DNA of 64,000 nucleotides from NCBI GenBank assembly GCA_963281255.1, contig OY725502.1, positions 3,782,001 to 3,846,000 on the forward strand, given 5' to 3'. Below the pieces are notes generated by a model that did not search any database, was not told the DNA's origin, and saw only the letters and a program-made list of their open reading frames with translations. This document shows, piece after piece, positions 67-42,722 of the stretch. A program made the position numbers and the translations under genes. This stretch comes from Aphrocallistes beatrix. Taxonomy: Eukaryota; Porifera; Hexactinellida; Sceptrulophora; Aphrocallistidae. The first letter of the stretch is position 1. Each line of letters opens with the position of its first letter.

Positions 67-3000
67 GTCGCGACATTTTGACTGATTTTGAAACTGCATT
101 TGATCAAACACCAATTGGTGTGTCGATCAATTCCATAATTAAAAGGCATAAAGAAACTCCAATCGCATCAATCTATCTTGATGATTTTATTAATTTAGTT
201 ATTTATCCAAGAGATCTAATTGAGCATAAGGTACGTAAATCTTTTTTGTAAGACGTTTTGTCGATTATTCTCAAGTATTGTCAATCTTCTTTTAGATTCA
301 TTACCTACTATTGCTCAATGCTGTCCTAAAATTGAAAAAACTGCATTCCGAGAAAGACCTGGTTGGAACTTCACAAGGTGACACTCAAAATCCAGATTCA
401 TCCCAGTTGTCGATTCCCTTGATCCATGTTGCATATGAAATGTTACTGAGTCGAATAACTTTCGTGAAGCAAGGTTATGGATTGAAATTTCGTGGACAAA
501 AAGAAATTGGAGAATTGATTGAAGATTCAATGAAAAATGATCCTAATGGAAAATTAGGAGAGAAAATTGATTCTTTAATATTCAAATCAATATTAGAAGA
601 ATGTAAACCTAATTTAGGGGATATGTCTACTAAAGCTGATTGGGACTTATGGTACTTAAAAGTAAGAAAGTTTCAACCTCTCATTGAAACCAATATCAAT
701 ATAATATTCTCTAATCGTGAAACAATATTGTCTATCAAGTGAGTTAAATAATACTAATACAGCATTTTTGATTAAAGTAATAAATAGTACATAATTTTCG
801 ATATAAAATTCTTAATTCCTTCATTTTTTAGACGAGCTTGGAATGCCAGCCAAACTATTTTGATTTTTGTTGCCAATTTTGTACTTCAGAGCGAATACGA
901 TATGAAAGCCTATTTGCACCAAATAAACACGGTAAGTTGTTTATCATATTAGTTGGAGTTATATTGTGAGTTATTCGAAATGAAATGATCTCTTAGATGG
1001 TTTACGCTCCAAATACAGAATTCGACTCTCCTGAAATTTTGAAGCGGATTTTCATGGTTTTAAATGCATTAACAAAAAAGGTTAATACTGAGATTAGGTG
1101 AGTTTTCTGATTATATATACCGATATTAGTCATTCATTTAGCAAGCACAACATTCTAACGGTGGGTCATAATCATAAAACTGAGTATGTTGAATTAGGTT
1201 CAATTAATCCAATGAGACCTAAATTTGAAAATTGAAAACAAAGTTCACTTGGACAAAAGAGATGCTAAAATTCGTACTTCTGTACCAAAATCCCCAGGTC
1301 CCCTTAAATAGGCATTTTTACCCTAAATGTCCACTTGGTTTGATAACTTGGAAGTGGACTTCTTTGCAACATTTCCCATTTTCAATCCTTCCAACCATCA
1401 TACAATCATAACGGAGGTAATTATACGTCGATTGGCAACAGAACAATGGTTGGAAGGATTTGAGAAGTTTACAAAATACCCAATTCCAAGTTATCAAACC
1501 AAGTGGACATTTCGTGTCAAAAAGGGACTTTAGGGCTTTGATACAGAGTAACAAAATTCAACATTTTCTTTTATCCAAAAGTGGACTTATTTTACAATTT
1601 TCAAATTTAGGCATTGTCCTTATTTAACCTAAAACCGGGAAAAATTAATAATAAAATTGGTTGATAGTAAGATCCTCGTAAATCAGCCAGCCAAAGTAAA
1701 TCTAGTGGCATGTTCTAACCAGCCTCCAAAATGTGAATTTTCAAAATGTACCTATCTAACAATATTTGTTGACAATGTTATTTCCTGAATACAGTACTCA
1801 ACTGAACATCACATGTATCAAGTGTAAACGCCATCCTGCTGATGTGATCGCCCTAGCCTGTCTTCACTACCGATGTAGAAATTGCTGCCCACATGTCAAG
1901 CCAGAATCAAAGTGTCCTGATTGTGAAGATGATATATATGCTTCAGTTATAGTGTCAGAACGTGAGCAGCATACCTTTAAGTGCAAGTAAGTTTATTAAA
2001 TTAATTGTATTATTAATCATTTGTTAAAATGTACTTACCTGTATATGATTATCATCACCTCATCCGAGTTGAGAATATGAATTATTATACTACAACCTCG
2101 ATTCCCTAAACGATCAAAGTTGTTTGCTAACTTTCAATACTATAGAGTTATCATCTATTCCCCATAGAGTGCGGAATTAAGATAATTCATAACTTGGAAT
2201 TTTAAATTTTTTCGAACTTGATTTTCAATAAGTATGTAAGTTATAAAATCCAGTTTTGTACTAGTCAAAAAGGTATGTGATCTGGTCCAGTCTGATTTGT
2301 TAATTGCTAATAAAATAGGGAAATGGTGAGCAAACAAAATGAATTCAAAGCCATTTCAACTAATTTTATCATGGAGTTCCTCTCATGCATCACCTTTGCT
2401 ACATCGGATACCTCAGAAGATGATAAGGGTCTAATCGAATATTTAATTGGGTACATCGCACTTGATGAGAATGCATTGGAAACCCTGCCAGATTTTGAAA
2501 AAAATGACGTCTCACTTTTCCAAGAGGGGATTTTAAAACCGTCAGCAACTGTTAGATTATTCTTACTTCAACTTTTAATCAAAAACAGGTAAATAGTTCA
2601 TTATTTCAGGCACTTCTTAGGAAACACATTATATACTTATAGATAAATAGGTCTACCAATGATATATTTCGATCACTCTTTTCTTATTTTCTATCATTTT
2701 TGAAATTATCCTTATAGATTTCATTCACTACGGAACAAGTTATCTGAATATATGGAATTAACACTAAAACAAGTAAATCGAAAGGAAGAATCAGCTGCAC
2801 ATGAAATGATAATTCTTTTCGTTCAGTGTTTCGAGGTAGAATCTTTTTAAATATTGTTTTTGTTGTTACGTATCAATATTTTATTTTCTTACAATTTTAG
2901 GATTATTTCCATTCAAAATACTTTTCTCTATCAAATGAATCCTTAAAGACCGAATATATATCTTCATATATGATTCCCAATCGAATATCTGATAATTTTG

Positions 3001-6000
3001 AACCTCTCACTGTGCAGAAAGATCTTACACCTGCCTATATTGAGTGTGTAGCAATCTTAAGATTTATTGCACTCACCATGTGTAATTTGATATTTCAAAA
3101 GTATGATCTCCAACGAGAAGCTCTATACATTTTACTTGATCGTGAAAAATCTTCTTATTTTATTAAACAAATAAGGGCTCAAATTCCTAACAAATTCATA
3201 CTCCTACTGGAAATGTTCAAAAATTTGTGCCTTTCTGTCACTTGTTCTGAACAGATCAAAACTTTCATAATGAAGTCATTCTATTCACACTGGGGCTGGG
3301 GAGGTTTGAGGTCGATTCTTAACATTCAAGAATTCAGTTGGATTATGCCATCAGAAGAATCTAAACACACCCGTGTTAGTTCATATGTTTAATATGGTTT
3401 ACAACAAAGATTATCTTTAATAATTTCTACATTTAGATTTCCCACATACCCTTGGATTTATTCGCTGCATTCGGTGCTGACTATCAAGAAGCGAGAAGGG
3501 CTGTACATTTCCTCCTTCATCAAGATGATGTTTACCTACTAACTGAATTTATTGATCATCAAAAATTGAATGTGTGTTCAAATATTTTCGACTATTTTTG
3601 CATATCTTTATGAAATTTACTTTTACCCAAATACTTTCTATTTTAGAAAAATAACAGAATCATTCTACATCGGTTCATTATTTTTGCTATTTTTACAGAA
3701 GGATATTTACAATACCTACAGAATGACAGTACTAGATTACACATTGTCCGTTACAAGGTGCTGTAGCTTATCCTTAAAGATAGCATTATTATAATGTTGA
3801 CCTAATATGTATGTATATATTGCTCTATAATCTTTTGAATCTTTTAGATTGACAACGTATCGAGAATTCTAAATGCAAACTTGGACACTATGCCGAGTGT
3901 ATTGAATATTCTTATAACCCAACTTCTCAAGAATAACTTATTTAACAATCGTATCAGTGAATTTATTTTATCGCCCGATTCACATGGATATACACCTACG
4001 ATTTCAAGTATATATTGTCATATTGGGATACTACTACATCATGCATTAGCTGAAGAAAAAGAAAAATTCCTAACTCCTCTTACGCTCATTTATTCGAATC
4101 CCTCAAAACTTAAGCACAAATTATTCCCTACAATGGAAAACATTGAATCCTCCTCTTCTAGCCAAGTGACCATTACAGAAGAAGGAATATGGTATCAATG
4201 TCCAAATGGGCATCCATATCTTATTGATGATGTAAGTAGTATTAAATTACCATACCGTCTTTCACTGAATAAGCGCCGAGGGGTTAGATAAGATGCGAAC
4301 ATTTTAATGTTGGTAAACCACCTGTTATTGCTAGTTGTATTTATGAATACTCTTAGTGATTAGTAATGAGATTAGAAATCATTTATTTCTTCAAACGCGA
4401 CTTTTTTCAACCGATACTGCGCGTTGAATTTTTGTGCTTTTGAGCACGAGAAAAACAAGTGCTGGGGATTTAAGGTGCACGAAAATAATGAGCGCCAAGG
4501 AGCATATTCAGGTAAAGACAGTACGTACTTCAAAAGCGTAACTACCAGTAGTACAAACGCTATTAATTGCTATCATGTAGTACACCGCCATACCATTTAG
4601 GGGATAACTGATTACCAGTGATATCAATATTTTGCAAAATCCATCGTCCTGTAAAATTACATTGCTAAACCTTTAAGGATACGCAACATTTTAGTCACAA
4701 CCTTAAGTATTATGCCAATTATTTTAAATATTTGATCCTCAAGTGTGCAAAATCATTGCCTATATACACTTGTTCAGAGTGTGGAATCTCAATTGAAAGT
4801 TTTTTTCATCCAATGCAAGCTGATGTTATAAAGAAACAAGACAGAGGACACTTACTCGGAAATCCGTTAGAACGTCAGCCTATAAATATTGGCCTCAGGT
4901 AATCGAGAGAGGAAAGGAAAAATCTTCAAGTTTAGTGACATGAATTGGACTTTTAAAATTTATTTTTTATATAACTAGGAGGATATCTGCAACATCTGTG
5001 TCGATAATCCGGGCTGTAATGCATGCGATCTTCTCCTGGGCTGCTTGTGTGAAGTATTACAATAACCTACAGCATCTTAGAGAACTTACAGAACATGTAG
5101 GAGAAATGGAGATAACGAAATTTTACTTTTTACATTTGTTCATCGATATTCAAGATATCGCAATTTCAACTGGAAGAGATTTTGAAGAAGCAGTATTAAT
5201 TGTGCACATGGTGATTGATGCGATAATCAACTGTGAAGAAAATATTGGTAAGTTTACCAAATATTTTGTGCTGTTCAGAAATTCTGCTTGTAGTAATCAA
5301 CAGGTAGTAGGGATCGTGGGTAACATTTATTTTTAAATATACTTTAGTCAATATAGATACAGTCCTTACATCAAATCTGCTTCGAGAGTCTTGGGAATTC
5401 TTCTTCGACAAATATTTCATCACTCCAATCCTTGGAAACCTGGATACTATGGTGGGAGAGAGAATGACACACGTACGAAATGATGCAAGGGTATTGAATA
5501 ATACTGTTTTGAGGTATGTTAGATATAAAAGTGACGTAGCCAAAGTTCCGTCTAATGTTACAATGCTGATGCTCCCGTAAAATGTGGTCATGATTTTTTA
5601 TAATAAAATATACCACAAAGAAATAGCATTATTCAGAATCATCCCCGGGTATTTCAAACTAGCTAAGAACGTTCATGTCTCTCCACTCAAATCTTACGCT
5701 GCACAACCGTGAAACCATTCCGGCTACACTTTTGGTCATCATGTCGTTTTGAAATTCTTGTATAAAAATGTATGTATCCATTTTAGATCACTTTATGAGA
5801 AGGATTCAACATCATCCCAAACAGAAGCGAATTTATGGAGATATAGAAATATAATCTGTTTCCAACACTTTAAAAAGACATTCAACTCACAAGGTCTTGA
5901 AAAGACTTTCAAATATTCACTACTTGCGAGATTTATTCAAGGAGAGCTGATTTTGTCTGCAACTCGATTTTTACCAGAAATATTTCGTCTTCAGCTAAAA

Positions 6001-8500
6001 CTTTCACAGGGAAAATTCTTAAAAATATATGAAAAAATGCATGCAACAAATACAATCCAACATTTTCTTGATAAAATCAAGGATGGTAAGTTTATTATAT
6101 GTAATTTACTCATCTCTCTTAGTAGATATTTATAATTTTTCATGCTTAAATTCTTAGAGGAAGGTCAAAAGGCAGTTGAAGAATATGAATTTTTAATCAA
6201 TGGATTTGCATCTGCCTGGATTTTAATTGGAAATGAAGTAATTATTCAACTGGGTCTAGATTTAAAGTTCCAGGAGGTGTGTATAAAAGAAACACCATTA
6301 TCATTTCTTCTTCCTAATTTTTTGAAAGATACATCAATCATAGAAGCATCAATAAAAATGTTGGTGAATAGTCACAATTCAATTATTGAAGAACAAAAAC
6401 GATGTTCATTTCTCCCTAACAATGAAAAGTAAGTTTATAAATTGCATATTACCTTCAGTTAAATGTTGTTTTGAGAGACAAAAAGGAAGAACTTAAATCT
6501 TTCTCAATTTAATATTTAGCATGAGAGATGAAAGAATCAATCTCAACAATGTATCTCCAAACAACTTGATCAACTATCATCAACAACTGGACAAGCTTAT
6601 CATATCCAACGCACGATATTCACTCCAATTTGGAGAGGGAACTAGGATAGAATATGATTATATGACTATTGAGAGACAATTAGTTGATAAATTCATTAGT
6701 TCCAAGCCATATATAATATATCTTCCTAGACCTAACATCGCAACAGAAGATAACATTCGAGCGAAGATTCAAAGGATAAACGAATTAATTCCCCAGGTTG
6801 ATAAACATTGCTTATTTTGTAGATATGTACGATGCAAATGTTTTCAGAAATTCTATAGTAAGGAACCATTCAAAAGTCTCATAGCTCAAATTCTTACAAA
6901 TAATTCTTTTTTCCCTTCTACTATATTTTAGCATTTCATGGTACACAGCTATCTACTTAGGGCGGTCAGAAAGTTCTAATCAGTGTTATCATACACTCTT
7001 ATTGTACCTTATTAGATTGATATTGAAGCTTGAATTTACTTCTTAACACATTCACAAGTGATACCAATTTACAAAATCAAAATCTAGAGAAAACTCTTTG
7101 TATACCACTTCCTATATATTGTGTCGCTTGAGCCACCGTGTAAAATTATGGCCACAAACCACCCGACTTTCCCTCAAGAGTAACGACATTACAAGGGCAT
7201 TACTAAGCGATACGAATGCTCAAATACAAATCAATCTTAGGAAGTTGATGGGAATGATACTCTCTCAGATTCAAATATCTGATAATGGAGCCTACTTTTT
7301 AGGGAAGGACGAGTGGTGAACGGGTGATTTGTGGCCATAATTTTACACGGTGGCTCAAGCGACACAATATATAGGACGTGGTATACAAAGAGTTTTCTCT
7401 AGATTTTGATTCTGTAAATTGGTATCACTTGTGAATGTGTTAAGAAGTAAATTCAAGCTTCAATATCGATCCAATAAGGTACAATAAGAGTATATGATAG
7501 CACTGATTAGAACTTTCTGACTGCTCACTTCCTTGCATGTTATTTCTCTTTTAATGCACCTAAAATGTATATTGGCTTTTTATCTTAAGGATATACTTGG
7601 TGAAGATATAAGGAAGAAGATATTGACTGAATTGCAAACTATTGAGAGAATATCTGAAGTTTTGGATTTACTTGAAGTAGTCATGGGATTCGCAGGGTCC
7701 GCAGGAGGCTTCCAAAACAACAAAATACAAAACTATCTTCGTGATGTCCTAAAATACTCACGTGGTCAAGATCTCCTCAGCGAAACGGTTAGATATAATC
7801 ATTTGATCAGTATTATAATTATCAATGGGGCTATATCATTGCCAGTTTTTGTTGTTTTTTACTATTATACGTTTATCCCCCTCTTTATAAAATATCATCA
7901 TAACCATATATTCACACAATTGGATTTTCTAGTTAATTAATAATTTAGATAACAATGCATATTTTATAACAGGCAAACATCAATTGTTGTATGAAGCATA
8001 TAGTTTCATTCTGGAGGGTGTTATCAGTTGAAAAGGCTATAATTTTTGTTCAGCATAATCAGGTTTGTTATTCACTTTGAAATTTTTTGAATTTGATTTT
8101 TTTCCATCTATTTCATCTTTATTTTAGTATCCTTTCAGTTCATTTCCAGAGTATCTTTACAGACAACTCAATATCGAACAAATTAAGGAATTTAATAATA
8201 ACATTAACCTCTTGCCCCTTAGAGAAATACTTAGCGAACTTCATGACTTTATATTTTTCTCTCTCAAATCCTATAATAGTACTCAAGCTGATTGCCCGTA
8301 AGTAACTTTAGCCCTGTCGTCATTTTATTTATTTATTTATTTATTATGACTGCACGATTAGATTATATGACTGCTTCAAATATTACTTCAAAACTGAACA
8401 GAATAAAGAGCTCGAGAATTTTCCTTCACGCATATTTTCCAAAGACATCTTCGTGTCTCATACAATACACGTTTGGACTATATTAGCTCAAGAAACATGA
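67..8500 (+). CDS. RNF213: RNF213-like E3 ligase, copy 1, 3' half (5' end outside the window)
   Basis: This is the C-terminal half of a mysterin/RNF213-type giant E3 ubiquitin ligase, a cytosolic enzyme known in vertebrates to ubiquitylate proteins and bacterial lipid A. I joined 21 exons: 67-230, 296-738, 832-931, 997-1097, 1795-1986, 2319-2588, 2718-2835, 2901-3374, 3437-3571, 3647-3757, 3848-4231, 4744-4898, 4979-5247, 5348-5513, 5787-6085, 6158-6428, 6520-6796, 7590-7787, 7973-8062, 8128-8297 and 8362-8500. Together they give 1,507 codons with every phase consistent and one TGA at 8498-8500. Exon 5 holds a complete C3HC4 RING (CIKC, CLH, CRNC, CPDC). Exons 11-12 hold the RZ finger (CPNGH then CSEC), followed by the GHLLGNP motif. 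I see no stop or frameshift, so this looks like a working gene. The ATPase half should lie upstream of the window. Exon borders are inferred from splice consensus and from comparison with the second copy. Confidence 0.87.
1098..1794 (+). other. Intron 4 of RNF213 copy 1, carrying a foldback insertion
   Basis: This 697-bp intron separates the exon ending GAGATTAG from the RING exon. It contains an insertion at 1325-1512 with 27-bp perfect inverted arms. Short reading frames on both strands here come from the foldback and are not genes. Confidence 0.7.
1325..1512. mobile_element. Foldback MITE-like element with 27-bp inverted arms
   Basis: The arm at 1325-1351 (AAATGTCCACTTGGTTTGAT...) is exactly repeated in reverse at 1486-1512. 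The paralogous intron of the second RNF213 gene, near 25640, has one arm-like stretch (AAATGTCCACTTGGTTCG) but not the rest. The inverted copy is therefore specific to copy 1. No transposase is present and no target duplication was recognised. Confidence 0.6.
4232..4743 (+). other. Intron 11 of RNF213 copy 1, splitting the RZ finger
   Basis: This intron separates the two metal-binding halves of the RZ finger. It contains about 232 bp (4334-4565) bounded by the direct repeat ATTGCTA (4327-4333 and 4566-4572). The second RNF213 copy lacks this stretch and has a different element at the equivalent place. I see no terminal inverted repeat in it. Confidence 0.5.
6960..7526. mobile_element. Long-arm foldback transposon (MITE) in intron 17 of RNF213 copy 1
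   Basis: This 567-bp insertion has about 200-bp imperfect inverted arms. The left arm begins GGGCGGTCAGAAAGTTC and the right arm ends GAACTTTCTGACTGCTC. They converge on a central stretch of about 160 bp (7162-7319). The same intron of the second RNF213 copy (near 31920-31960) runs straight from the left flank to CACTTCTTTGCATG, so it is an empty site. The flanks TACTTA and CACTTC may be a degraded target duplication. A 73-codon open frame inside is part of the arms and not a gene. Arm length would suit a Mutator-like or foldback element, but the superfamily is not established. Confidence 0.78.
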
Positions 8501-9528
8501 GAATATTGTTGTCTATTTATATAACTTTTATCCTTTGAACGAACAGTATCTTATTTTAATTTTATTGAACTCACTCTATTTTCCCAGGATTTGAGCAAAA
8601 GACTATGACAAAAATCCAGGTGAATAATAGCTGACTTTGACAGTATATCCATAAATTGTGCAATAAATCGTAATATTTTAGTCGTTTGGCATGAGATCAT
8701 GATATTTAGTTGAAATTGTGAGAGATATTTTTGGAGATATAAATGCAATGGATTTTGGATCGCTTCAAAATTTAAATTTATGAATATTTGGTATTAGGTC
8801 ATAGAGCAGTAGCATTTTGAAAGCAGTGAACAAGTAACATGATATGCACCTATATGCAAAGTATTCCGTTCATAATACTTATAAATGATCAGTTTACTCA
8901 TGAATTATGTTTTACAAATGTACAATATGTGTAATTTAGGTAACTACTTCTAAGTTAAGTAATTCATTGTAAAATGGTGAGGATTATGACTCTTTAATAG
9001 TACTTGAAAATATTTACCAAAATAAAGTTTTTATAATAATCCATCATAATTTATGCATTAGCCAATTTAAAGGTAAATATTAAGTTTATGGTGTTTCCTT
9101 CATTAAATATATAAACAATTCTCAACCTTACTTTTATATTTATCGCTAGCGCAACACACATTCGTTACATTAATAACGAAGCCTCTCTGAAAATGCTTTT
9201 TGGTTATCCATACCCACAAATCAATGATTAATGAATTCCAATATAAATATTAATTACTATTTCTTAAGTTGTTCCTTTTCATGGATACAAAAATTATCAG
9301 TCCTCAAACTGACGTAGCAATATGTCATTATTAATAATTGATAAATAATTACAGGATAACAAACTATTTTTCGTATTTTATAAAAGGGAAATATCGAAGG
9401 ATAATTGTTTTTGTTGTTTTTTAATTGAAGAATAATTTAAATTTTAATTAATTATATTACTTCACTTACTGTTCGTTCATATTATTAGTTTTTTTCCCAA
9501 TTCCTTTATCACGATCCAATGATACAAG
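8501..9528 (+). promoter_or_regulatory. Spacer between the two RNF213 genes: 3' end of copy 1 and promoter region of copy 2
   Basis: This AT-rich kilobase lies between the TGA of copy 1 and the ATG of copy 2. It should contain the 3'UTR of the first gene and the promoter and 5'UTR of the second. An AATAAA occurs near 9021. I see no convincing open frame, RNA gene or strong core-promoter motif. Confidence 0.4.
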
Positions 9529-21500: not shown

Positions 21501-24500
21501 ATTGAAATTGCATTCTGGTTCTAATTTGTTCTTAATTTCAAAAAACGATTCTTAACCATTCATGCACAGGGATGGTGAAAATGCTGTTAACAGCCACTTT
21601 GGCTGTTTGCTGTTAACAGCTCACAATTGGCTGTTAACAACTACAATTTCCAAACAATTAACAGTCTAGCTCTGCTGTTATTTGAGCTTTTAAAGCAAAT
21701 TTATTTGCTGTTAACAGCCCAATTCGAGCTGTTAACAGCCCAATTTGAGCTGTTAACAGTCCGATTTGAGCTGTTAACAGCCCAATTTGAGCTGTTAACA
21801 GTCCGATTTGAGCTGTTAACAGCAAATTTAAAGCTATATGGTTCTGTTTATATTCGTATATTTTTGAATAATTTATCTCAAATTTGGCGAATATAAATAG
21901 ATAGAGACATAGTATATAAATTAAAATTTTGCGATAGCTGTTAACAGCCACAATTTTGTGTTGGCTGTTAACAGCTGCTAGCTGTTAACAGCTTAGCTGT
22001 TTCCATCCCTGTTCATGCATTATTAATGAATCTCGCCTTGTTCAATCTCATGGGTTGAATCATTCCTATTTGATAAGTTAGCATCATCACGAAAATTATT
22101 TTCTGCTAATAGACATATACTTACAAAATCTGAAAAAACTTCACACGGTAGATCAGAAAATTTAATACTTATAGGTAAGGATGTAGTGATAAAATTTGTT
22201 TGAACCTGTGATTGAATGTTGTATCTGTTGTTGCGCCATGTGTTCATATGCTTTGCTCGTAGTTCTAGACGATTTCGACCATATACCATTTTGCGAGCTT
22301 TCCCCAAAAACCAAACGGATTACGCCAATTTCTAGTCATGTTAAGATTTTCCAGTACAGTGAATTTACGCAATTCAAATTTCGATAAAGCATTTAGTATC
22401 TTCGAAGGTAGATTCTGAGACAAATGATAAATTTGTTGTCACCATTTTCTAAAATTTTAAAAAAATATTTTTAAAAAATCTATTCAGCTGTGATGGAAAC
22501 CCTAAGAATAAAAAGTGACCATTCGAGTAATCTGCACACATCAAATGAACCAAATCGATTTGTTAACAATGAATTGTATAAGTAGCAAATAGTGATTTTA
22601 GATAGTCTTATCATTTAAATATTACTACAAGTATAGTATTTTGAAAATATTTTCATTCGAAACCATATTACATTTATTTTCGCATTGGTTAATCACAAGT
22701 GATATCAATTAATTAGTTATATTATATTAGTACATATTCATCATCATCCGCGTAAAACTAAGTTTTGGTTTCACTGGATGTTAATCTTAGCTCTGTGGTG
22801 AATTCATAAATTTGTTGGACAATAATCGTAAACAGGTTTGACCAAGACTCGAAATCATCGCATTAAACTGTATGGATTCCAGGTTTCCTCTGTACATTGA
22901 AATTCCAGAAGATCGGAGGCACTATTATTAATTTGTAAAATTTAATATTATGAATTACCACTTATAGTATATTCTATTTATGTTTCAAATTTGATCAAGA
23001 TCCTGCAAGGCACTGTGAAACTAGAACTAGTTATACCCTGCTCACTTTAAGCAATAGTGAAATCCTATAGAAATTTCATCAAATTTGCATCGTCATTGTC
23101 ATGTGGTTATAATTGGGAGGCATTAGATATTAAAATGGCACAAAACTACCTCGCTCATAATGTTCTCTTTCAAATTTGATCAAGATCCTACAAGGCACTG
23201 TGAAACTAGAACTAGTTATACCCTGCTCACTTTAAGCAATAGTGAAATCCTATAGAAATTTCAGCAAATTTGCATCGTCATTGTCATGTGGTTATAATTG
23301 GGAGGCAATAGATATTAAAATGGCACAAAACTACCTCGCTCATAATGTTCTGTTTCAAATTTGATCAAGATCCTGCAAGGCACTGTGAAACTAGAACTAG
23401 TTATACCCTGCTCACTTTGAGCTATAGTGAAATCCTATAGAAATTTCATCAAATTTGCATCGTCATTGTCATGTGGTTTTAAGTGGTAGGCGTTAGATAT
23501 TAAAATGGCACAAAACTACCTCGCTCATAATGTTCTCTTTCAAATTTGATCAAGATCCTATAAGGCACTGTGAAACTAGGACTAATTATTTCCTGCTCAC
23601 TTTTCGCTGCTGAACGTGCTGCTAACTTCACACCCATAAATACTTTAACGTCCAAGTACGGGAAAAATGGTCTATGTTCAAAAATTGTTCACAATTTTAG
23701 ACATAATTATCCTTAAAGTAACAACGATAATTTTGATGTCTTACTTGTGTATGCTTGTTGTTTATTATTTTTTTAATGTTTTTTAAGTTATTTCATGGAA
23801 AATATGCGAAATCATTTCGGAACTATTGGACCATAAGAACGTACCAATCTATTCTAAAGATTGGTCACGATCTGCAGCATTTAAAGAGCATCTCATTCAA
23901 TCAGCTGGGACATTTAGAAAAGCACTCTCGAAAGAAATTGATATAGCAATAATACCCTTAGTTGCCGAGACATTGGCATATCTTGATCGAAATGGAAATA
24001 TTGATCTTGTATTTTCAGATGATAAACCAGCACTTAAAGATTTGTGGAAATGTATATTTATTGACAATTATTTGCTGTTTAATCATTCACAAGCCATCAA
24101 TCCTGTAATAAGTGGCGATAAAATCAAAGTTCAGGTGATTAGCGATGGTTGGAATGGAAACTTTTTTCAATCTGGTTTCCCTTTTTCATGGATTATAGTT
24201 CGAAGTATTAATGAACTATTGAATAAAATGAAGACTCATTCTGGTATGTTTACTTCGACCAAATAGCTTATTTTCATTAAAATATTTTTGCTGAGTTAGC
24301 ATTATCTACTTTATAGGTCGCGACATTTTGACTGATTTTGAAACTGCATTCGATCAAACACCAATTGGTGTGTCGATCAATTCCATAATTGAAATACATA
24401 AAGAAACTCCAATCGCATCAATATATCTTGATGATTTTATTAATTTAGTTATTTATCCAAGAGATCTACTTGAGCATAAGGTATGTACAAGTAGATGTCC

Positions 24501-27500
24501 TTTATAATTACTTGCCTATTATTCTCAAGTATTGATAACCTTCTTTTAGGCTCACTACTTACTATTGCTTAATACTGTCCTGAAATTGAAGGGATTACAT
24601 TGTGGAGAAGACCTGGTTGGAGCTTCACAAAGTGACACTCAAAATCCAGATTCATCCCAGTTGTCGATTCCCATGATCCATGTTGCATATAAAATGTTAC
24701 TGAATCGAATCACTTTCGTGAAGCAAGGTTATGGATTGAAATTTCGTGGACAAAAAGAAATTGGAGTATTGATTGAAGATTCAATGAAAAATGATCCTAA
24801 TGGAAAATTAGGAGAGAAAATTGATTCTTTAATATTCAAATCAATATTAGAAGAATGTAAACCCAATTTAGGGGATATGTCTACTAAAGCTGATTGGGAC
24901 CTATGGTACTTGAAAGTAAGAAAGTTTCAACCTCTCATTGAAACCAATATCAATATAATATTCTCTAATCGTGAAACAATCTTATCTATCAAGTGAGTTA
25001 AATAATAAAACAGCACCTCTCATTGTCACATCACCACTCGAAATTGTATTTTAGCATTTTTGCTTAAAGTGATAAATAGTTCATAATTTTTAATATATAA
25101 TTCTTAATTCCTTCATCTTTAGGCGAGCTTGGAATGCCATCCATACTATTTTGATTTTTGTTGCCAATTTTGTACTTCAAAGTGAATACGATATGAAAGC
25201 CTATTTGCGCCAAATAAACACGGTAAGTTGTTTTATGCCAACCATAGAATTAGTATATTGCGAGTTATTCGTAATGAAATAATTTCCTAGATGGTTTACG
25301 CTCAAAATACAGATTTCGACTCTCCTGAAATTTTGAAGCGGATTTTCATGGTTTTAAATGCATTAACAAAAAAGGTTAATACCGAGATTAGGTGAGTTTT
25401 CTGATTACTATATACATGCACCAATATTCGTTATTCTTTAGTAAGTACAATATTCTAGTTGTGGGAAAATATCATAAAGCTGAGTATGGTTGATCAATAA
25501 TATTATTCAAAGTTAAATTATGTCAATGAGACCTAAATTTGAAAATTGTAAAAGAAAGTTCTCTTGGACCAAAGAGATGTTAAAATTTGTGTCTCTGTAC
25601 CAAAATCCCCAAAGTCGCCTTAAACAGGCATTTTTCCCCTAAATGTCCACTTGGTTCGCTAACTAGGTAAAACAAGAGACTTTGGGGGCATTAGTACAGA
25701 ATAACGAATTTCAACTTCTTTCCTTACCCAAAAGTGGAATTCTTCATATTCTTTAAATTTAGCTCTCATTGGCGTGATTTATCCTAAAACTGAAAAAATT
25801 GATAATAATTGGTTGATATTTAGATCTACGTAAATCAGCATTTAAAATATCATAAAGATACCCCAGTTTACCTCCACCTTTTTCAAGCGCACCCTGAGAT
25901 CCCACAAAAGCGCCGGATACCAAGTGAGTATAGTCTAGCTCAGTTATTACTCAAATAAATCCCACTGTGTCCACTGTGACTATGCTCACTTAGTCCGGCG
26001 CTTATGTGGGATCTCAGGGTGGCGACTGCTTGATAAAGGTGGAGGCAAACTGGGGCATCTTTATGATATTTTTGAGGAATTCTTTTGGGAAACATTGTAT
26101 AGTATAATAATGCAAATTCAACATTTTTTATTTTTATGATGAGTCATCGTCACTTAACTGCATATACTATATATCCATCAAACGGTGCCAGGATATATGT
26201 GAACATTTATTCGTTAGAAGTTCTCTTATATCACTTTTTAGTGTGGAGTTATTAAGTTTTAAACATCTGTATAGTTTTATCCTTATATGGATATGAATAA
26301 TCATATTTTAATTTCTCAGTAATTATTGAGCACTTGTCATCTCTTCTCTTAGCTATTTGTTGTGTACTCGTATTAATGGGAATAGATATTCAGTAATAAA
26401 CTTTTAGCAATCTCACACTTCTGATCATAATTCGTGTTAAACTTGAAACAATAGAATTTGGATTGCAATGCATAGTGTGAACTAAATAATTAATTTTTAA
26501 ATAAAGATTGTGATGTGTATGTTCTAACCAGCCTCCAAAATGTGAATTTTCAAAATGCACCTATCTAACAATATTTGTTGAATGTTATTTCCTGAATACA
26601 GTACTCAACTGAACATCACATGTATCAAGTGTAAACGCCATCCTGCTGATGTGATCGCACTAGCCTGTCTTCACTACCGATGTAGAAATTGTTACTCACA
26701 TGTCAAGCCAGAATCAAAATGTCCCGATTGTGAAAATGATATATATGCTGCAAGTATTCCGTCAGAACGTGAGCAGCATACTATTAAGTGCAAGTAAGTT
26801 TATTACATTAATTTTAATTATATTATTAATCATTTGTTAAAATGTACGTATATTATTATTATCACCTCATCCGAGTTGAAAATAGGGATTATTATATAAC
26901 CTATATTCTCACATTGGAGGTGCAGAATTAAGATATTTCATACATTGGAATATAATCTGTTTTCGAATATTTTATTTTATAGATTTTCAATAATTACGTA
27001 TATTAAATTAAAGTCCAGTCTTGGACAGGGTCAAAAAGGTATGTGACCCGGTCTAAGTCTGATTTGTTAATTGCTAAAAAATAGGGAAATAGTGAGCAAA
27101 CAAAATGAATTCAAAGCCATTTCAACTAATTTTATCATGGAGTTCCTCTCATGCATCACCTTTGCTACAGCGGATACTTCAGAAGATGATAAAGGTCTAA
27201 TCGAATATTTGATTGGGTACATCGCAATTGATGAGAATGCATTGGAAACACTGCCAGATTTTGAAAAAAACGATATCTCACTTTTTCAAGAGGGAATTTT
27301 AAAACCGTCAGCAACTGTTAGATTATTCTTACTTCAACTTTTAATTAAAACAAGGTAAACAATTCATTATTTTATGCACTTTTAGGCACTACATCATTGA
27401 AAAATTGATCTAGCCCTCACTTTTTCTTACTCCATCATTTTTAAAAAAATATCCTTATAGATTTCATTCACTACGGAACAAGTTATTTGAATATATGGAG

Positions 27501-30500
27501 TTAATACTAAAACAAGTAAATCGAAAAGAAGGGTCAGCCGCACATGAAATGATACTTCTTTTTGTTCAGTGTTTTGAGGTATAATTTTTTTATTTTTAAT
27601 TGTCATTAAATCTCGATTTTTACTCGATATATCCCAATTTTAGGATTATTTCCATTCAAGATACTTTACTCTACCAACTGAATCCTTAAAGATCGAGTAT
27701 ATATCCTCATATATGACTCCCAATCAAACACCTAATATTTTTGAGCCTCTTACGATGCACAAAGATCTTACACCTGCCTATATTGAGTGTGTAGCAATCT
27801 TAAGATTTGTTGTATTGACCATGTGCAACTCGATATTTCGAATATATGATCTCCAACGAGAAGCTCTTTTTATTTTACTTAATCGTGAAAAATCTTCATA
27901 TTTTATTGAACAAATAAGGGCTCAAATTCCTAACAAATTCATAGTCCTACTGGAAATGTTCAAAAATTTGTGCCTTTCTGTCACTTGTTCTGAACAAATC
28001 AAAACTTTCATTCTGAAGTCATTCTATTCACACTGGGGCTGGGGAGGTTTGAAGTCGATTCTTAGCATGCAAGAATTCAGTTGGATTATGCCATCAGATG
28101 AATCCAAACACTCCTCTGTTAGTTAATTTGCTTGATATTGTTTCATAACAATGCTTATCCTTAATAATTTCTACATTTAGATTTCCCATATTCCCTTGGA
28201 TTTATTTGCTGCATTTGGTGATGATTATCTAGAGGCCAGAAGGGCTGTACATTTTCTCCTTGGTCAAGATGATGTTCACTCGCTAACTGAATTTATTGAT
28301 CATCAAAAATTGAAAGTATGTTCAAATATTTTTGGCATATATTTATGAAAATTCTTTTTTTTCCTTAAATATTTTTAGAAAAATAACAAAATCGTCCAAC
28401 ATCGGTTCATCATTTTTGCTATTTTTACAGAAGGATATTTACAATACCTAAAGAATAACAGCACTGGAGTACACATTGCTCGTTATAAGGTACTGTAGTT
28501 TATCCTTAATAATAGCATTATTATCATTTTGACCTTGCATATTGCTCTATAATTATTCTTTTGAATCTTTTAGATTGACAACTTATCGAAATTTCTAAAT
28601 TCTAAATTGGGCACTATGCCGAGTGCATTGAATATTCTAATAACCCAACTTCTCGAGAATAACCTATTTAACAATCGTATCAGTGAATTTATTTTATCGC
28701 CCGATTCACATGGATATATACCTACGATTTCAAGTATATATTGCCATATCGGGGTACTTCTACATCATGCATTAGCTGAAGAAAAAGAAAAATTCCTAAC
28801 TCCTCTTACGCTCATTTATTCGAATCCCTCAAAACTTAAGCACAAATTATTCCCTACAATGGAAAACATTGAATCCTCCTCTTCTAGCCAAGTGACCGTT
28901 ACAGAAGAAGGAACATGGTATCAATGTCCAAATGGACATCCTTATCTTATTGATGATGTAAGTAATATTAATATTAGCATATGTACTTAAAAAGTTTAAC
29001 TACTTATACAGATGCCATTTATTGCTACAGTCCACTTCCGAAACCGGGCCATACCGCAAACCGGGGCGCATCCGGAAAAATATGGTCGTGTTCAATACAA
29101 ATTGCTCTCGGAAACCGGGGCGAGCTTAGATGATATTTTTCTTGGCAAAATTATATTTTTAGTTTAAAGCATTCCATTTGTATATGCTTAATGTATGAAG
29201 AGTTGTTACAGCATTTATGGGTGTGGGTACCAAGATAAATTAGAGTCAAAGTCAAATTTTTACTGTCATCAATGTGATGCCTATGAGACAGACTGACTGC
29301 GTAGTGTGTACATACGTATACTATACAAGGGCGAAACAACAGGTATATGTGAGTCGTGTTACTTTTTGGAGTGGTCTTACTATACCAAATGATTGTGGAT
29401 GTTAGTTTACGCAGACCCAAGATTATTTATCTTAAAATGCTTTGTTTTTGTCACGAGCTATACTAACTTGATAGAATACATCTAATCACTCGAAAACCGG
29501 GGCGCCCAGCTCTGGTCCCGAGGTGTCCCGGTTTTCGGAAGTGGACTGTATCACTTAGTACACCACCATACCACCTATAAGATGACGGATTGCCTATTAT
29601 ATCAATATTTTCGCCGAAATCATCATCCTACGTATACAAATTTCATTAGTTAAACCTTTAAGGATAAGTAACATGGTCGCTAACTCAGATATGATCAATT
29701 ATTTTATACGTCTTATCTTCAAGTGTGCAAAATCATTGCCTATATACACTTGTTCAGAGTGTGGGATCGCAATTGAAAGTATTTCTCATCAAATGCCTGG
29801 TGAAGCTGGTGATGTTGTAAAGAAACAAGACAGAGGACATTTACTCGGAAATCCGTTAGAACGTCAGCCTATAAATGTTGGCCTCAGGTAATCGAGAGAG
29901 GAAAGGAAAAATCTTCATTTAAGTTTAGTGACATGAATTGGACTTTTAAATTTAATTTTTATATAACTAGGAGGATATCTGCAACATCTGTGTCGATAAT
30001 CCGGGCTCTAATGCATGCAATCTTCTCCTGGGCTGCTTGTGTGAAGTATTACAATAACCTACAGCATCTTCGAGAACTTACAGAACATGTAGGAGAAATG
30101 GAAATAACAAAATTTTACTTTTTACATTTGTTCATCGATATTCAAGATATCGCAATTTCAACTGGAAGAAATTTTGAAGAAGCAGCATTAATTGTGCACA
30201 TGGTGATTGATGCGATAATCAACTGTGAAGAAAATATTGGTAAGTTTACCAAATATTTTGTATTGTTCAGAAATTTTGTAGTAATCAAGCGGTGGTAGGG
30301 ATCGTGAGTAACATTTATTTTAAGATCCACCTTAGTCAATATAGATACAGTCCTTACATCAAATCTACTTCAAGAGTCTTGGGAATTCTTCTTCGACAAA
30401 TATTTCATCACTCCAATCCTTGGAAGCCTGGATACTATGGTGGGAGAGAGAATGACACACGTACGAAATGATGCAAGAGTATTGAATAATACTGTTTTGA

Positions 30501-32884
30501 GGTATGTTAGATATAAAAGTGGCATAGCCAAGAGTTTTCTTCTAATGTTACAATGCTGATCCCGTAAAATGTGGTATTGATTCTAGTAATAAATATACCA
30601 CAAAGAAATAGCATTATTCAGAATCATCCCCGGATATTTCAAACTAGCTAAGAACGTTCGTGTACATCCACTCAAATCTTACGCTGCGCAACCGTGTACC
30701 ATACCGGCTGCACTTTTGGTCATCATGTCGTTTTGGAATTCTTGTAGAAAGTGTGTGTATCCATTTTTAGATCCCTTTATGAGAAGGATTCAACATCATC
30801 CCAAACAGAAGCGAATTTATGGAGATATAGAAATATAATATGTTTCCAACACTTTAAAAAGACATTCAACTCACAAGGTCTTGAAAAGGCTGTTAGATAT
30901 CCGTTACTTGCGAGATTTATTCAAGGAGAGCTGATTTTGTCTGCAACTCGATTTTTGCCAGAAATATTTCGTCTTCAGCTAAAACTTTCACAGAGGGAAT
31001 TCTTAAAAATGTATGAAAAAATGCATGCAACTAATACGATTCAACATTTTTATGATAAAATCAGAGATGGTAAGTTTATTATATGTAATTTACTTATCTG
31101 TCTTAGTAGGTATTTATAATTTTTCATGCTTAAATTCTTAGAGGAAGGTCAAAAGGCAGTTGAAGAGTATGAATTTTTAATCAATGGATTTGCATCTGCC
31201 TGGATTTTAATTGGAAATGATTTAATTATTCAACTGGGTCTAGATTTAAAGTTCCAGGAGGTGTGCATAAAAGAAACACCATTATCATTTCTTCTTCCTA
31301 ATTTTTTGAAAGATACATCGATCATAGAAGCTTCGATAAAAATGTTGGTGAATAGTCACAACTCAATTATTGAAGAACAAAAACGATGTTCATTCCTCCC
31401 TAACAATGAAAGGTAATTTTATAAATTTTATATAAAATACAGTTAAATGTTGTTTTGAGAAACAAAAACTTAAATATTTCTAAATTTAATATTTAGCATG
31501 AGAGATGAAAGAATCAATCTCAACAATGTATCTCCAAACAACCTGATCAACTATCATCAACAACTGGACAAGCTTATCATTTCCAACGCACGATATTCAC
31601 TCCAATTTGGAGAGGGAACTAGAATAGAATATGATTATATGACCATTGAGAGACAATTAGTTGATAAATTCATTAGTTCCAAGCCATATATAATATATCT
31701 TCCTAGACCTAACATCGCAACAGAAGATAACATTCGAGCGAAGATTCAAAGGATAAACGAATTAATTCCCCAGGTTGATAAACTTTGCTTATTTTGTAGA
31801 TATGTACGATGCATTTTTTTTTAGAAATTCTACAGTAAGGAACCATTCAAAAATCTTATGGATCAAATTCTTAAAAATAATTTTTTCCTTTTATTATATT
31901 TTAGCATTTCATAGTACACAGCTATATATATATCACTTCTTTGCATGTTATTTCTGTTTTAATGCGCCTAAAATGTATATTGGCTTTTTATCCTAAGGAT
32001 ATTCTTGGCGAAGAAATAAGGAAGAAGATATTGACAGAATTGCCAACTATTGAGAAAATATCTGAAGTTTTGGATTTGCTAGAAGTAGTCATGGGATTCG
32101 CAGGGTCCGCAGGAGGCTTCCAAAACAACAAAATACAAACCTACCTTCATGATGTCCTAAAATACCCACGTGGTCAAGATCTCCTCAGCGAAACGGTTAG
32201 ATATAATCATCAGTATGTATCAATAAGACAATATCTTTGTACCAGTTTTTAAAATTATCCTTTACTATTAGTATGCACTACGAAATATCATCATAACCAT
32301 ACGTCACACGATTGAATTTTCTGGTTAATCAATAATTTAGATAACAATGTATATTTTATAACAGGCAAACATCAACTGTTGCATGAAGCATATAGTTTCA
32401 TTCTGGAGGGTGTTATCAGTTGAAAAGTCTATAATTTTCGTTCAGCATAATCAGGTTAGTTATTCATTTTTTGAGTTTGATTTGATTCGATTTATTTTAT
32501 CTTCATTTTAGTATCCTTTCAGTTCATTTCCAGAGTATCTTTACAGACAACTCAATATCGAACAAATTAAGGAATTTAATAATAACATTAACCTCTTGCC
32601 CCTTAGAGAAATACTTAACGAACTTCATGACTTTATATTTTTCTCCCTCAAATCATATAATAGTACTCAAGCTGATTGCCCGTAAGTAAATTGGTCTACC
32701 CCTGTCGAAATTTTATTTATTTATTTATTATGATTCCACGATTAGATTATATGACTGCTTCAAATATTACTTCAAAACTGAACATAATAAAGACCCCGCG
32801 AATTTTCCTCCCCGCTTATTTTCAAAAGACATATTCGTGTCTCATACAATACACGTTTGGACTATATTAGCTCAAGAAACATGA
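9529..32884 (+). CDS. RNF213: RNF213-like E3 ligase / AAA ATPase, copy 2, complete gene
   Basis: This is a complete mysterin-type gene, combining a dynein-like AAA core with an E3 module. Exon 1 (9529-19005) encodes 3,159 residues without an intron. It begins with a zinc-ribbon-like Cys cluster (residues 4-34, ending CPICG) followed by a long helical stalk. AAA site 1 has Walker A GETGCGKT (2115-2122) and Walker B FFDEAN (near 2181). AAA site 2 has GKPGSSKS (2455-2462) and LDEVGLAED (near 2531). Exon 2 is 19106-19271 and exon 3 is 19334-19432. The chain then jumps a 4.36-kb intron holding the large insertion and continues at 23788. The joined frame is 14,733 nt, about 4,910 aa, close to vertebrate RNF213 (about 5,200). 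The start is the first ATG and opens with the Cys cluster. The splice across the insertion is inferred from phase and homology. If it fails, the ATPase and E3 halves would be separate, broken genes. Confidence 0.88.
19430..20354 (+). repeat. Tandem array of about 185-bp units, left arm (5 copies)
   Basis: Units begin AAAGTGAGCAGGG near 19430, 19614, 19800, 19985 and 20170, with a degenerate sixth start near 20353. Each unit contains GGATCTTGATCAAATTTGAA, GAGCGAGGTAG and CACATGACAATGACGATG in the same order. The first and last units are the most diverged, as expected for array edges. Confidence 0.9.
20795..21297 (-). pseudogene. OTU-type cysteine protease remnant within the insertion
   Basis: Two minus-strand frames (21297-21106, then 21067-20795) read as parts of one protein broken by a stop and a frame change near 21080-21105. 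The second part has the layout of an OTU protease N-terminus: SPDGNGLFRSLSYVIAGT followed by QLRGLLIQKM. In active OTU enzymes the motif is D-G-N-C, with the Cys as nucleophile. Here the Cys position is Gly. No His of the catalytic dyad is seen before the frame ends. OTU domains turn up in animal transposable elements, so this is best read as decayed cargo of the surrounding insertion. The upstream part (SKSRFNNDMWQD...) is not recognised. Confidence 0.6.
21567..22011. mobile_element. hAT-type MITE with perfect 8-bp target duplication
   Basis: A 445-bp element bounded by CAGGGATGG (21567-21575) and its inverse CCATCCCTG (22003-22011). It is flanked on both sides by the identical 8-bp TTCATGCA (21559-21566 and 22012-22019). 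An 8-bp duplication with CAGGG-type ends is the hAT signature. The interior is built from copies of the palindrome GCTGTTAACAGC, including a run with 21-bp period (about 21700-21825). Because the motif is palindromic and the spacing a multiple of three, both strands show false frames rich in LLTAQ. No transposase is present. Confidence 0.92.
22023..22307 (-). other. Unrecognised 94-codon minus-strand frame in the insertion
   Basis: This open frame lies upstream, on its own strand, of the OTU remnant and just outside the nested MITE. It may be an N-terminal part of the same decayed element gene (basic start, RNNRYN, acidic tail). I recognise no domain and cannot exclude a chance frame. Confidence 0.25.
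22983..23612 (-). repeat. Tandem array of the same 185-bp unit, right arm, inverted (about 3.4 copies)
   Basis: The reverse complement of the left-arm unit recurs here. The CCTGCTCACTTT marker lies near 23036, 23222, 23407 and 23592. The spacing of about 185 bp equals that of the left array. The two arrays form a very large inverted repeat of about 630 bp per matched arm. Confidence 0.9.
23788..32884 (+). CDS. RNF213: Exons 4-25 of RNF213 copy 2: E3 shell, RING, RZ finger and C-terminal domain
   Basis: Exons: 23788-24243, 24317-24480, 24550-24992, 25123-25222, 25291-25391, 26602-26793, 27085-27354, 27461-27578, 27644-28117, 28181-28315, 28379-28489, 28574-28957, 29724-29887, 29971-30239, 30336-30501, 30771-31069, 31142-31412, 31497-31773, 31998-32195, 32365-32454, 32512-32681 and 32746-32884 (TGA). 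From the second of these onward, every exon has the same length as its partner in copy 1, except the RZ-finger exon 29724-29887, which is 9 bp longer. The RING (CIKC, CLH, CRNC, CPDC; about residue 3675) and RZ finger (CPNGH, CSEC; about residue 4220) keep all their ligands. The first exon here (23788) matches the RNF213 region around the AGTFR motif and DLW. Read alone this would look like a separate gene, but its first exon starts mid-domain in a phase that fits exon 3 at 19432. Confidence 0.88.
25392..26601 (+). other. Long intron before the RING exon of RNF213 copy 2
   Basis: This 1.2-kb intron corresponds to the 697-bp intron 4 of copy 1. Extra length comes from a palindromic element (25845-26073) and roughly 450 bp of AT-rich sequence after it with no recognisable content. 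Homology to copy 1 resumes at TGTTCTAACCAGCCTCC (26519). Confidence 0.6.
25845..26073. mobile_element. Palindromic MITE-like element
   Basis: About 90-bp arms face each other. The left arm carries AATATCATAAAGATACCCC, CCTCCACCTTT and CCCTGAGATCCCACA. The right arm carries the inverse of each, in reverse order. The central loop is about 50 bp. Copy 1 lacks the element at the matching intron position. No clear target duplication is seen. Confidence 0.7.
29028..29548. mobile_element. Tc1/mariner-like MITE with TA target site
   Basis: A 521-bp element starting CAGTCCACTTCCGAAA (29028) and ending with the inverse TTTCGGAAGTGGACTG (29548). It is flanked by TA on each side (29026-29027 and 29549-29550). 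Short inverted ends beginning CAGT and a TA duplication are the mariner pattern. It sits in the intron that splits the RZ finger of RNF213 copy 2. Copy 1 has TTATTGCTAG at this spot without the element. There is no transposase frame; a minus-strand frame inside (29151-29420) has no recognisable domain. Confidence 0.85.
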
Positions 32885-42462: not shown

Positions 42463-42722
42463 GAAAAATTTGAACAAAAATATTATTTTTCATTTTACAT
42501 ATATTTTATTTTCTGCTGAAAAACATGCTATGTTGGAATTAATGAGAAAATATACTCAACTTATTTAATTGTATGACTTGAAATTCCATATTAAGATAAT
42601 ATTAATAATATTAATTTTTTTAATAATTTATAGTGATAATAATATGTATATATTTTTTGATTAATTAGCAATACATTCGTATACTAAGTTAAATGTATTA
42701 AACGAGATATACAGCAAAAAAC
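42463..42722. other. Short AT-rich spacer before PIKfyve
   Basis: This 260-bp interval must hold the 3'UTR of the membrane-protein gene and the PIKfyve promoter and 5'UTR. It is extremely AT-rich and contains no recognisable site. Confidence 0.4.

Follow-up and report, generated by a model that had tools for sequence, protein, structure and literature searches.

The two head-to-tail genes that span the start of the window (the whole 64,000-nucleotide stretch analyzed, C16:3782001-3846000 of a 100.5-Mb genome in 28 contigs) are, as read from their sequence, two intact RNF213 (mysterin) genes predicted to encode giant AAA+ motor ubiquitin ligases. We consider it on balance probable that they are recent duplicates, both intact and under constraint, within a family of at least 25 loci in which labor would be split between ligase and ligase-less members. 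Taken alone, the C16 pair is another member of a known family; what is new here is the presence of putatively ligase-less clusters within the RNF213 family.

Gene Models of the Tandem Pair

A sequence-only reading of the window had described two RNF213 genes sharing 21 exons, 20 of them equal in length and one differing by 9 bp, and this description proved accurate down to its coordinates: Exon 3 of copy 1 begins at position 67, the stop codon of copy 2 ends at position 32884, and the 21 downstream exon pairs run in the same order in both copies, with an AG acceptor at each exon and a GT donor wherever an intron follows. The exception in length is exon 14, with 155 nt in copy 1 and 164 nt in copy 2. 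Within the window, copy 1 is represented by exons 3-23 only and copy 2 by all 23 exons. The upstream half of copy 1, for which a check for stops had been set in advance, lies outside the window (exon 1, 9,475 nt, C16:3771175-3780649; exon 2, C16:3781535-3781990), and both exons are open, so that this check leaves the description standing. With these included, 22 of the 23 exon pairs are of equal length, and the open ATG-to-stop frames comprise 4,818 codons (copy 1) and 4,821 codons (copy 2). At dS 0.20, a duplicate would be expected to keep its exon lengths, and their equality gives no evidence for a special function. DNA identity between the copies is 84.8-91.5% across long blocks; judged from these blocks and from the E values against solved RNF213 given below, the similarity is far beyond chance.

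The exon boundaries of both copies were inferred from splice sites, frame, and conservation, with no transcripts behind them. A 51-nt candidate for exon 12 was dropped because of a stop in copy 2; enumeration of splice sites led to a 111-nt exon with conserved splice sites, which is open in both copies (3647-3757 in copy 1 and 28379-28489 in copy 2). The giant-exon layout, with one exon of 9.5 kb and then 22 short ones, is old in the family, as the open frame enclosing the AAA core exceeds 2,800 codons in many paralogues.

Table 1.— Features of the tandem pair and distribution of the loci matching the RNF213 AAA core. Positions without a contig name or Mb are those of the window.
Feature	Position	Strand	Remark
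Copy 1 exons 3-13	67..4231	+	Splice sites, open frame
Copy 1 exons 3-6	67-230, 296-738, 832-931, 997-1097	+	
Copy 1 exon 7	1795-1986	+	RING
Copy 1 exons 8-12	2319-2588, 2718-2835, 2901-3374, 3437-3571, 3647-3757	+	
Copy 1 exon 13	3848-4231	+	First RZ half
Copy 1 exons 14-23	4744..8500	+	Splice sites, open frame
Copy 1 exon 14	4744-4898	+	Second RZ half
Copy 1 exons 15-18	4979-5247, 5348-5513, 5787-6085, 6158-6428	+	
Copy 1 exons 19-22	6520-6796, 7590-7787, 7973-8062, 8128-8297	+	
Inverted-repeat (MITE-like) element	6962..7524	.	Intron 19 of copy 1
Copy 1 exon 23	8362-8500	+	Includes stop
5' region of copy 2	8727..9528	+	Duplicated upstream flank, 76% identical over 812 columns to 5' region of copy 1
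Copy 2 exon 1	9529..19003	+	ATG to donor, 9,475 nt, N-terminal arm and AAA core; phmmer to RNF213
Repeat element	19382..23651	.	Inverted arms of 185-bp tandem units, intron 1 of copy 2
Copy 2 exon 2	23788..24243	+	
Copy 2 exons 3-13	24317..28957	+	
Copy 2 RING exon	26602-26793	+	
Copy 2 exon 13	28574-28957	+	Holds first RZ half
Copy 2 exons 14-23	29724..32884	+	Stop ends at 32884
Copy 2 exon 14	29724-29887	+	Second RZ half
Contig C16	 	 	2 loci
Contig C1, cluster	8.08-8.45 Mb	+	10 loci, all on this strand
Contig C6, cluster	0.55-0.70 Mb	-, +	4 loci, three - and one +
Contig C6, other loci	1.17, 1.58, 2.99, 3.11, 3.18 Mb	 	5 loci
Contig C19	 	 	3 loci
Contig C4	 	 	1 locus
Contig C15	2.48, 3.14, 3.61 Mb	 	3 loci

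Identity and Catalytic Residues

A phmmer search with residues 1512-3156 of the exon-1 translation aligned them to solved RNF213 at E = 0, and all nine of the PDB sequences among the matches listed are RNF213; the C-terminal 1,663 residues of copy 2 match solved RNF213 over the E3 module with an E value of 5e-88, with the RING and the RZ finger paired in the alignment. In the human numbering of PMC11549300, counted on the alignment with a chain offset of 40, residues C4505, H4509, C4516, C4525, C4528, and H4537 are aligned in copy 2, and the same residues are present in copy 1. Following the roles given in the excerpts of PMC11549300 and PMC12075652, these six are the four zinc ligands, the nucleophile Cys, and the general-base His of the RZ finger. 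The RZ model PF20173 reaches 29.3 and 27 bits at the two C16 loci (cut-off 27), and a single exon of copy 1 alone scores 26.2 bits. Exon 7 of both copies carries the RING pattern CIKC...CLHYRCRNC...CPDC and aligns to the human RING; the Pfam RING model remains below its cut-off for the copy 1 exon (24.1 vs. 27 bits), so that it is the Cys/His pattern and the alignment to RNF213 that support the RING call. The Walker A (GETGCGKT, GKPGSSKS) and Walker B (FFDEANTS, LDEVGLA) motifs of AAA3 and AAA4 are kept in both copies. An intact RING, RZ finger, and open frame had been claimed for both genes, and the residues concerned are indeed present in both, with zero stops.

The pair shares with vertebrate RNF213/mysterin (6tax, 7oim, 8s24, 9jwg) a dynein-like AAA core with two ATPase sites and an E3 shell, RING, and RZ finger with the catalytic Cys/His dyad, all in the same order. 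It differs from the vertebrate gene in that one 9.5-kb exon holds both the N-terminal arm and the AAA core and is followed by 22 short exons, and in that the N-terminal 800 residues are unrecognizable by sequence; a CBM20 domain or stalk in the N-terminal part gave no Pfam or PDB-profile match.

Selection and Synonymous Divergence within the Pair

Over 4,815 aligned codons, the two copies show 88.5% amino acid identity, with a dS of 0.204, a dN of 0.057, and a dN/dS of 0.28 (Nei-Gojobori). Neither 14.5-kb frame contains a stop, where 68-69 would be expected in each under neutrality at dS/2 = 0.10 (assuming a transition weight of 2), and the amino acid changes in the AAA core, polarized with 18 paralogues, fall to copy 1 in 10 cases and to copy 2 in 8, with 19 assigned to neither. 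Both results support the earlier suggestion that selection acts on both copies.

The rate of change varies along the protein. The N-terminal 800 residues have a dN/dS of 0.44 (0.35-0.56) at 71% identity, residues 800-1500 have 0.23 at 89%, the AAA core has 0.17 at 93%, and exons 2-23 have 0.27 at 92%; the N-terminal 800 residues differ from the remainder (0.44 vs. 0.22, P 0.001, block permutation). Inside the N-terminus, the CBM-like stretch (0.28) is not the fastest, the ribbon having 0.55 and the stalk 0.46. Positive selection on the N-terminus was considered and rejected: No exon-1 window of the C16 pair exceeds a dN/dS of 1 (maximum 0.74, on 5.5 synonymous changes), nor does any 100-codon window of six C1 genes, and we therefore claim only faster or relaxed N-terminal change. 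In these six C1 genes the contrast is weak (N-terminal dN/dS 0.44, core 0.36), and between the C16 and the C1 genes the N-terminus is 22-23% identical and the core 54-55%. As the excerpts of PMC11549300 describe positively selected sites concentrating in the N-terminus of simian RNF213, a pattern that the faster change here parallels, the N-terminal arm of the C16 pair is a candidate recognition surface. In exon 14 of the pair, which carries the second RZ half, the ligase residues are kept in an exon without tight constraint (dN/dS 1.04 on 2.5 synonymous and 9.5 nonsynonymous changes).

Synonymous divergence is patchy: Across exon 1, dS varies between 0.04 and 0.50 when taken in windows of 200 codons, and the pair has an unchanged run of 80 codons and a run of 139 codons free of synonymous change, neither of which was equaled in 2,000 permutations. 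This pattern suggests gene conversion as its simplest account, local differences in mutation rate being another possibility.

The RNF213 Family across the Genome

An 825-residue query from the AAA core matched 49 pieces across the genome, which we grouped into 28 loci (table 1). The phylogenetic analysis covered 26 of these; the broken cores C6_1173 and C19_2037 were dropped, and C1_8273 and C6_601 stayed in, their stops masked as X. The C16 pair (100/100, bootstrap/SH-aLRT) joins the C6 and C1 clusters (96/99), which group together (99/100); as placed by this tree, the two clusters are the sister group of the pair. The C15 loci are set apart on a long branch (100/100), outside the RNF213 clade. 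At least 25 loci are therefore of the RNF213 type, of which 23 are placed in the tree. The local expansion proposed from the window was thus right in direction and too small in extent, given at least 25 such loci genome-wide. Only a few RNF213 loci are known in vertebrates, unlike the 25 seen here.

The three C15 loci encode distant AAA proteins, 34-39% identical over the longest core match, that have long open frames and the motifs GETGVGKT and G[AP]PGTSKT; these are possibly unnamed relatives of RNF213. In a C-terminal search, all ten C1 genes and all four genes of the C6 cluster were matched at exon 17. At least two other fragments of the C-terminal part, at C4:1.471 Mb and C19:2.125-2.130 Mb, have no core match. 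The former (C4:1471419-1472235), with no AAA-core match nearby, has RZ exons reading CPNGD for CPNGH and is probably a worn or partial RNF213 gene. Wear of the RZ outside the clusters is also seen in C6_3182, which lacks the His of the second half, and the PF20173 profile search, the single method applied here, gave nothing beside C6_1173, C6_2990, or C6_3105. Only one PF20173 match was assigned outside the RNF213 family, namely a ZNFX1-like gene (C7:4962256). This candidate has an RZ finger with the same ligands; it differs in its NF-X1-like Cys repeats (by eye) and in having no RNF213 AAA core in its 567-codon frame, and represents a separate gene.

The C1 and C6 Clusters

In the 14 cluster genes, a regular-expression search recovered the Walker A motif of AAA3 in 13 and of AAA4 in 14, and the Walker B motif of AAA3 in 12 and of AAA4 in 14. 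None of the 16 genome matches to PF20173 falls in either cluster, and a genome scan for codons spelling CPNGHP had four hits, in both C16 copies, C4_1945, and C6_3182 (reversed control 0).

The RZ interval was read in 5 of the 14 genes (C1_8084, C1_8130, C1_8447, C6_645, and C6_693), and in these the E3-shell exons are conserved on both sides of it. An exon-14 equivalent is demanded by phase and could be placed in all five, with lengths of 161, 158, 155, 155, and 155 nt in the same phase; its ends are inferred, and alternative splice choices are possible. The five equivalents have a common tail around H-x-x-x-DPF-x-RS and a few stray Cys/His, and both the nucleophile Cys at the exon start and the CxxC pair are absent from each; CPNGH was not found in the open frame of the preceding exon in the genes read. 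The RING interval was read in two genes, C1_8084 (exon 2 to exon 17) and C6_645. The RING pattern was found in neither, the conserved blocks jumping from exon-5-like to exon-8-like; the exon-6 equivalent was likewise unrecognized in both, which makes the absence of the RING a weaker result than that of the RZ. By these features, the cluster genes look like natural ligase-less RNF213 motors. They are RNF213 paralogues and should not be called ubiquitin ligases.

Interpretation and Alternatives

At issue is whether the motor or coat function of RNF213 can stand apart from its ligase. In mouse RNF213, ubiquitin is transferred via Cys4462 of the RZ finger with His4483 as the base (PMC12075652, excerpt). 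In RNF213-knockout MEFs, RZ-dead RNF213 still coats Toxoplasma vacuoles, which are not ubiquitylated, and ATPase mutants form no coating. Bacteria are neither coated nor ubiquitylated by RZ-dead RNF213; these mutants suggest that the coat is separable from the ligase on parasite vacuoles and not on bacteria (PMC11549300, excerpts). A multiplied RNF213 with the RZ residues gone in whole clusters and the ATPase kept would be a natural separation-of-function experiment, for which the C16 pair would serve as the ligase-competent comparison. Lineage-specific RNF213 copy-number expansion has been reported for symbiotic bivalves (PMC9993606), a similar growth in an invertebrate lineage; that account, as excerpted, gives the expansion alone, to which the present analysis adds gene structure, intact frames, and putatively ligase-less members. 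In the literature searched, judged mainly by titles, abstracts, and excerpts and with subscription papers mostly outside it, we found no account of RNF213 paralogues with an eroded RZ and RING.

Under the division of labor that we favor, ATP-driven RNF213 would assemble on intruding microbes or their vacuoles, as in mammals, and the RZ finger would then ubiquitylate the intruders. The ligase-competent genes, that is the C16 pair and some others, would do the marking, the ligase-less cluster genes would supply motor or coat subunits, and the N-terminal arm would change to fit different targets. The immune or lipid-droplet role proposed from the window alone is putative for these genes. Against such a division stand the functions that vertebrate RNF213 has in lipid droplets and in the vasculature. 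Some cluster genes, moreover, are broken in exon 1, so that the clusters may be partly decaying rather than specializing. A bolder version, which we regard as speculative and rather doubtful, is a partition of RNF213 within this genome into ligases and motors that lack the ligase. The giant AAA+ proteins of the 14 cluster loci, having lost RING and RZ, would then form ATP-driven coats around intruders alone or together with the C16 ligases, with an N-terminal arm that varies by gene and is shuffled by gene conversion in the manner of a repertoire.

Stops or a broken core were found in the stretch read at 4 of the 28 loci (C1_8273, C6_601, C6_1173, and C19_2037), and the worn RZ exon changes almost neutrally, with pN/pS of about 0.6-0.7 in three C1 pairs and pN 0.082 vs. 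pS 0.064 in one C6 pair (51 codons each). Such near-neutral change shows loss of the module, not use of the remaining protein. Both observations, like the dN/dS of 1.04 in exon 14 of the C16 pair, which is based on few changes, fit a history in which a recent tandem duplication of the ordinary kind was retained through dosage or drift and gained no new function, beside clusters that form a birth-and-death family from which most copies are leaving. We nonetheless think this history unlikely, as both C16 copies have stayed intact at dS 0.20 against the 68-69 stops expected without constraint, and as exon 1 (at least 3,129 codons) is unbroken in 6 of 10 C1 and 3 of 4 C6-cluster genes, as it is in both C16 genes, with a core dN/dS of 0.36 in the six C1 genes.

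The cluster genes might instead possess a third, undescribed ligase site or an unrecognized RING or RZ exon, and hence not be ligase-less. The RZ was read in 5 and the RING in 2 of 14 genes, the missed exon-6 equivalent in both RING-read genes indicates limited sensitivity, and a motif scan would miss a RING interrupted by an intron. A hidden ligase is nevertheless improbable in our view: The exon-14 equivalent is in phase and without the nucleophile Cys and CxxC pair in five of five genes, PF20173 has no match in the clusters (0/16), the CPNGHP codons are confined to four genes outside them, and the conserved blocks skip the RING position in two of two.

Flanks, Insertions, and Other Observations

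The upstream flank is duplicated along with the gene (table 1). Intron 1 of copy 1 measures only 885 nt, whereas that of copy 2 hosts a 4.3-kb repeat element; conversely, intron 19 of copy 2, with only 224 nt, has no room for the MITE-like element of copy 1. Because their insertions differ, the two copies represent separate loci and not alleles. Although uncollapsed haplotypes could in general yield similar tandem copies, an assembly artefact of alleles (haplotigs) placed in tandem is extremely improbable in view of the 11.5% amino acid difference, a dS of up to 0.50 in windows, the distinct insertions in each copy, and a tree that includes wider clusters on other contigs.

A 301-base probe from the repeat element in intron 1 of copy 2 has at least 127 matches genome-wide; an ORF on the minus strand of this element (20798-21145) is OTU-like by eye and has no Pfam match. 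Farther along, positions 34099-64000 of the window hold a kinesin, a 2,125-codon ORF (42702-49076), an ankyrin-repeat protein, a pyruvate dehydrogenase E1-like gene (by eye), a BTB protein, and an ERMP1 peptidase on the minus strand. The 17,996-bp contig C28 is mitochondrial, with the recognized protein genes all on one strand; TGA stands for Trp, and conserved sites, by our reading, show AGA at Ser positions, which we take to be an invertebrate-type mitochondrial code.
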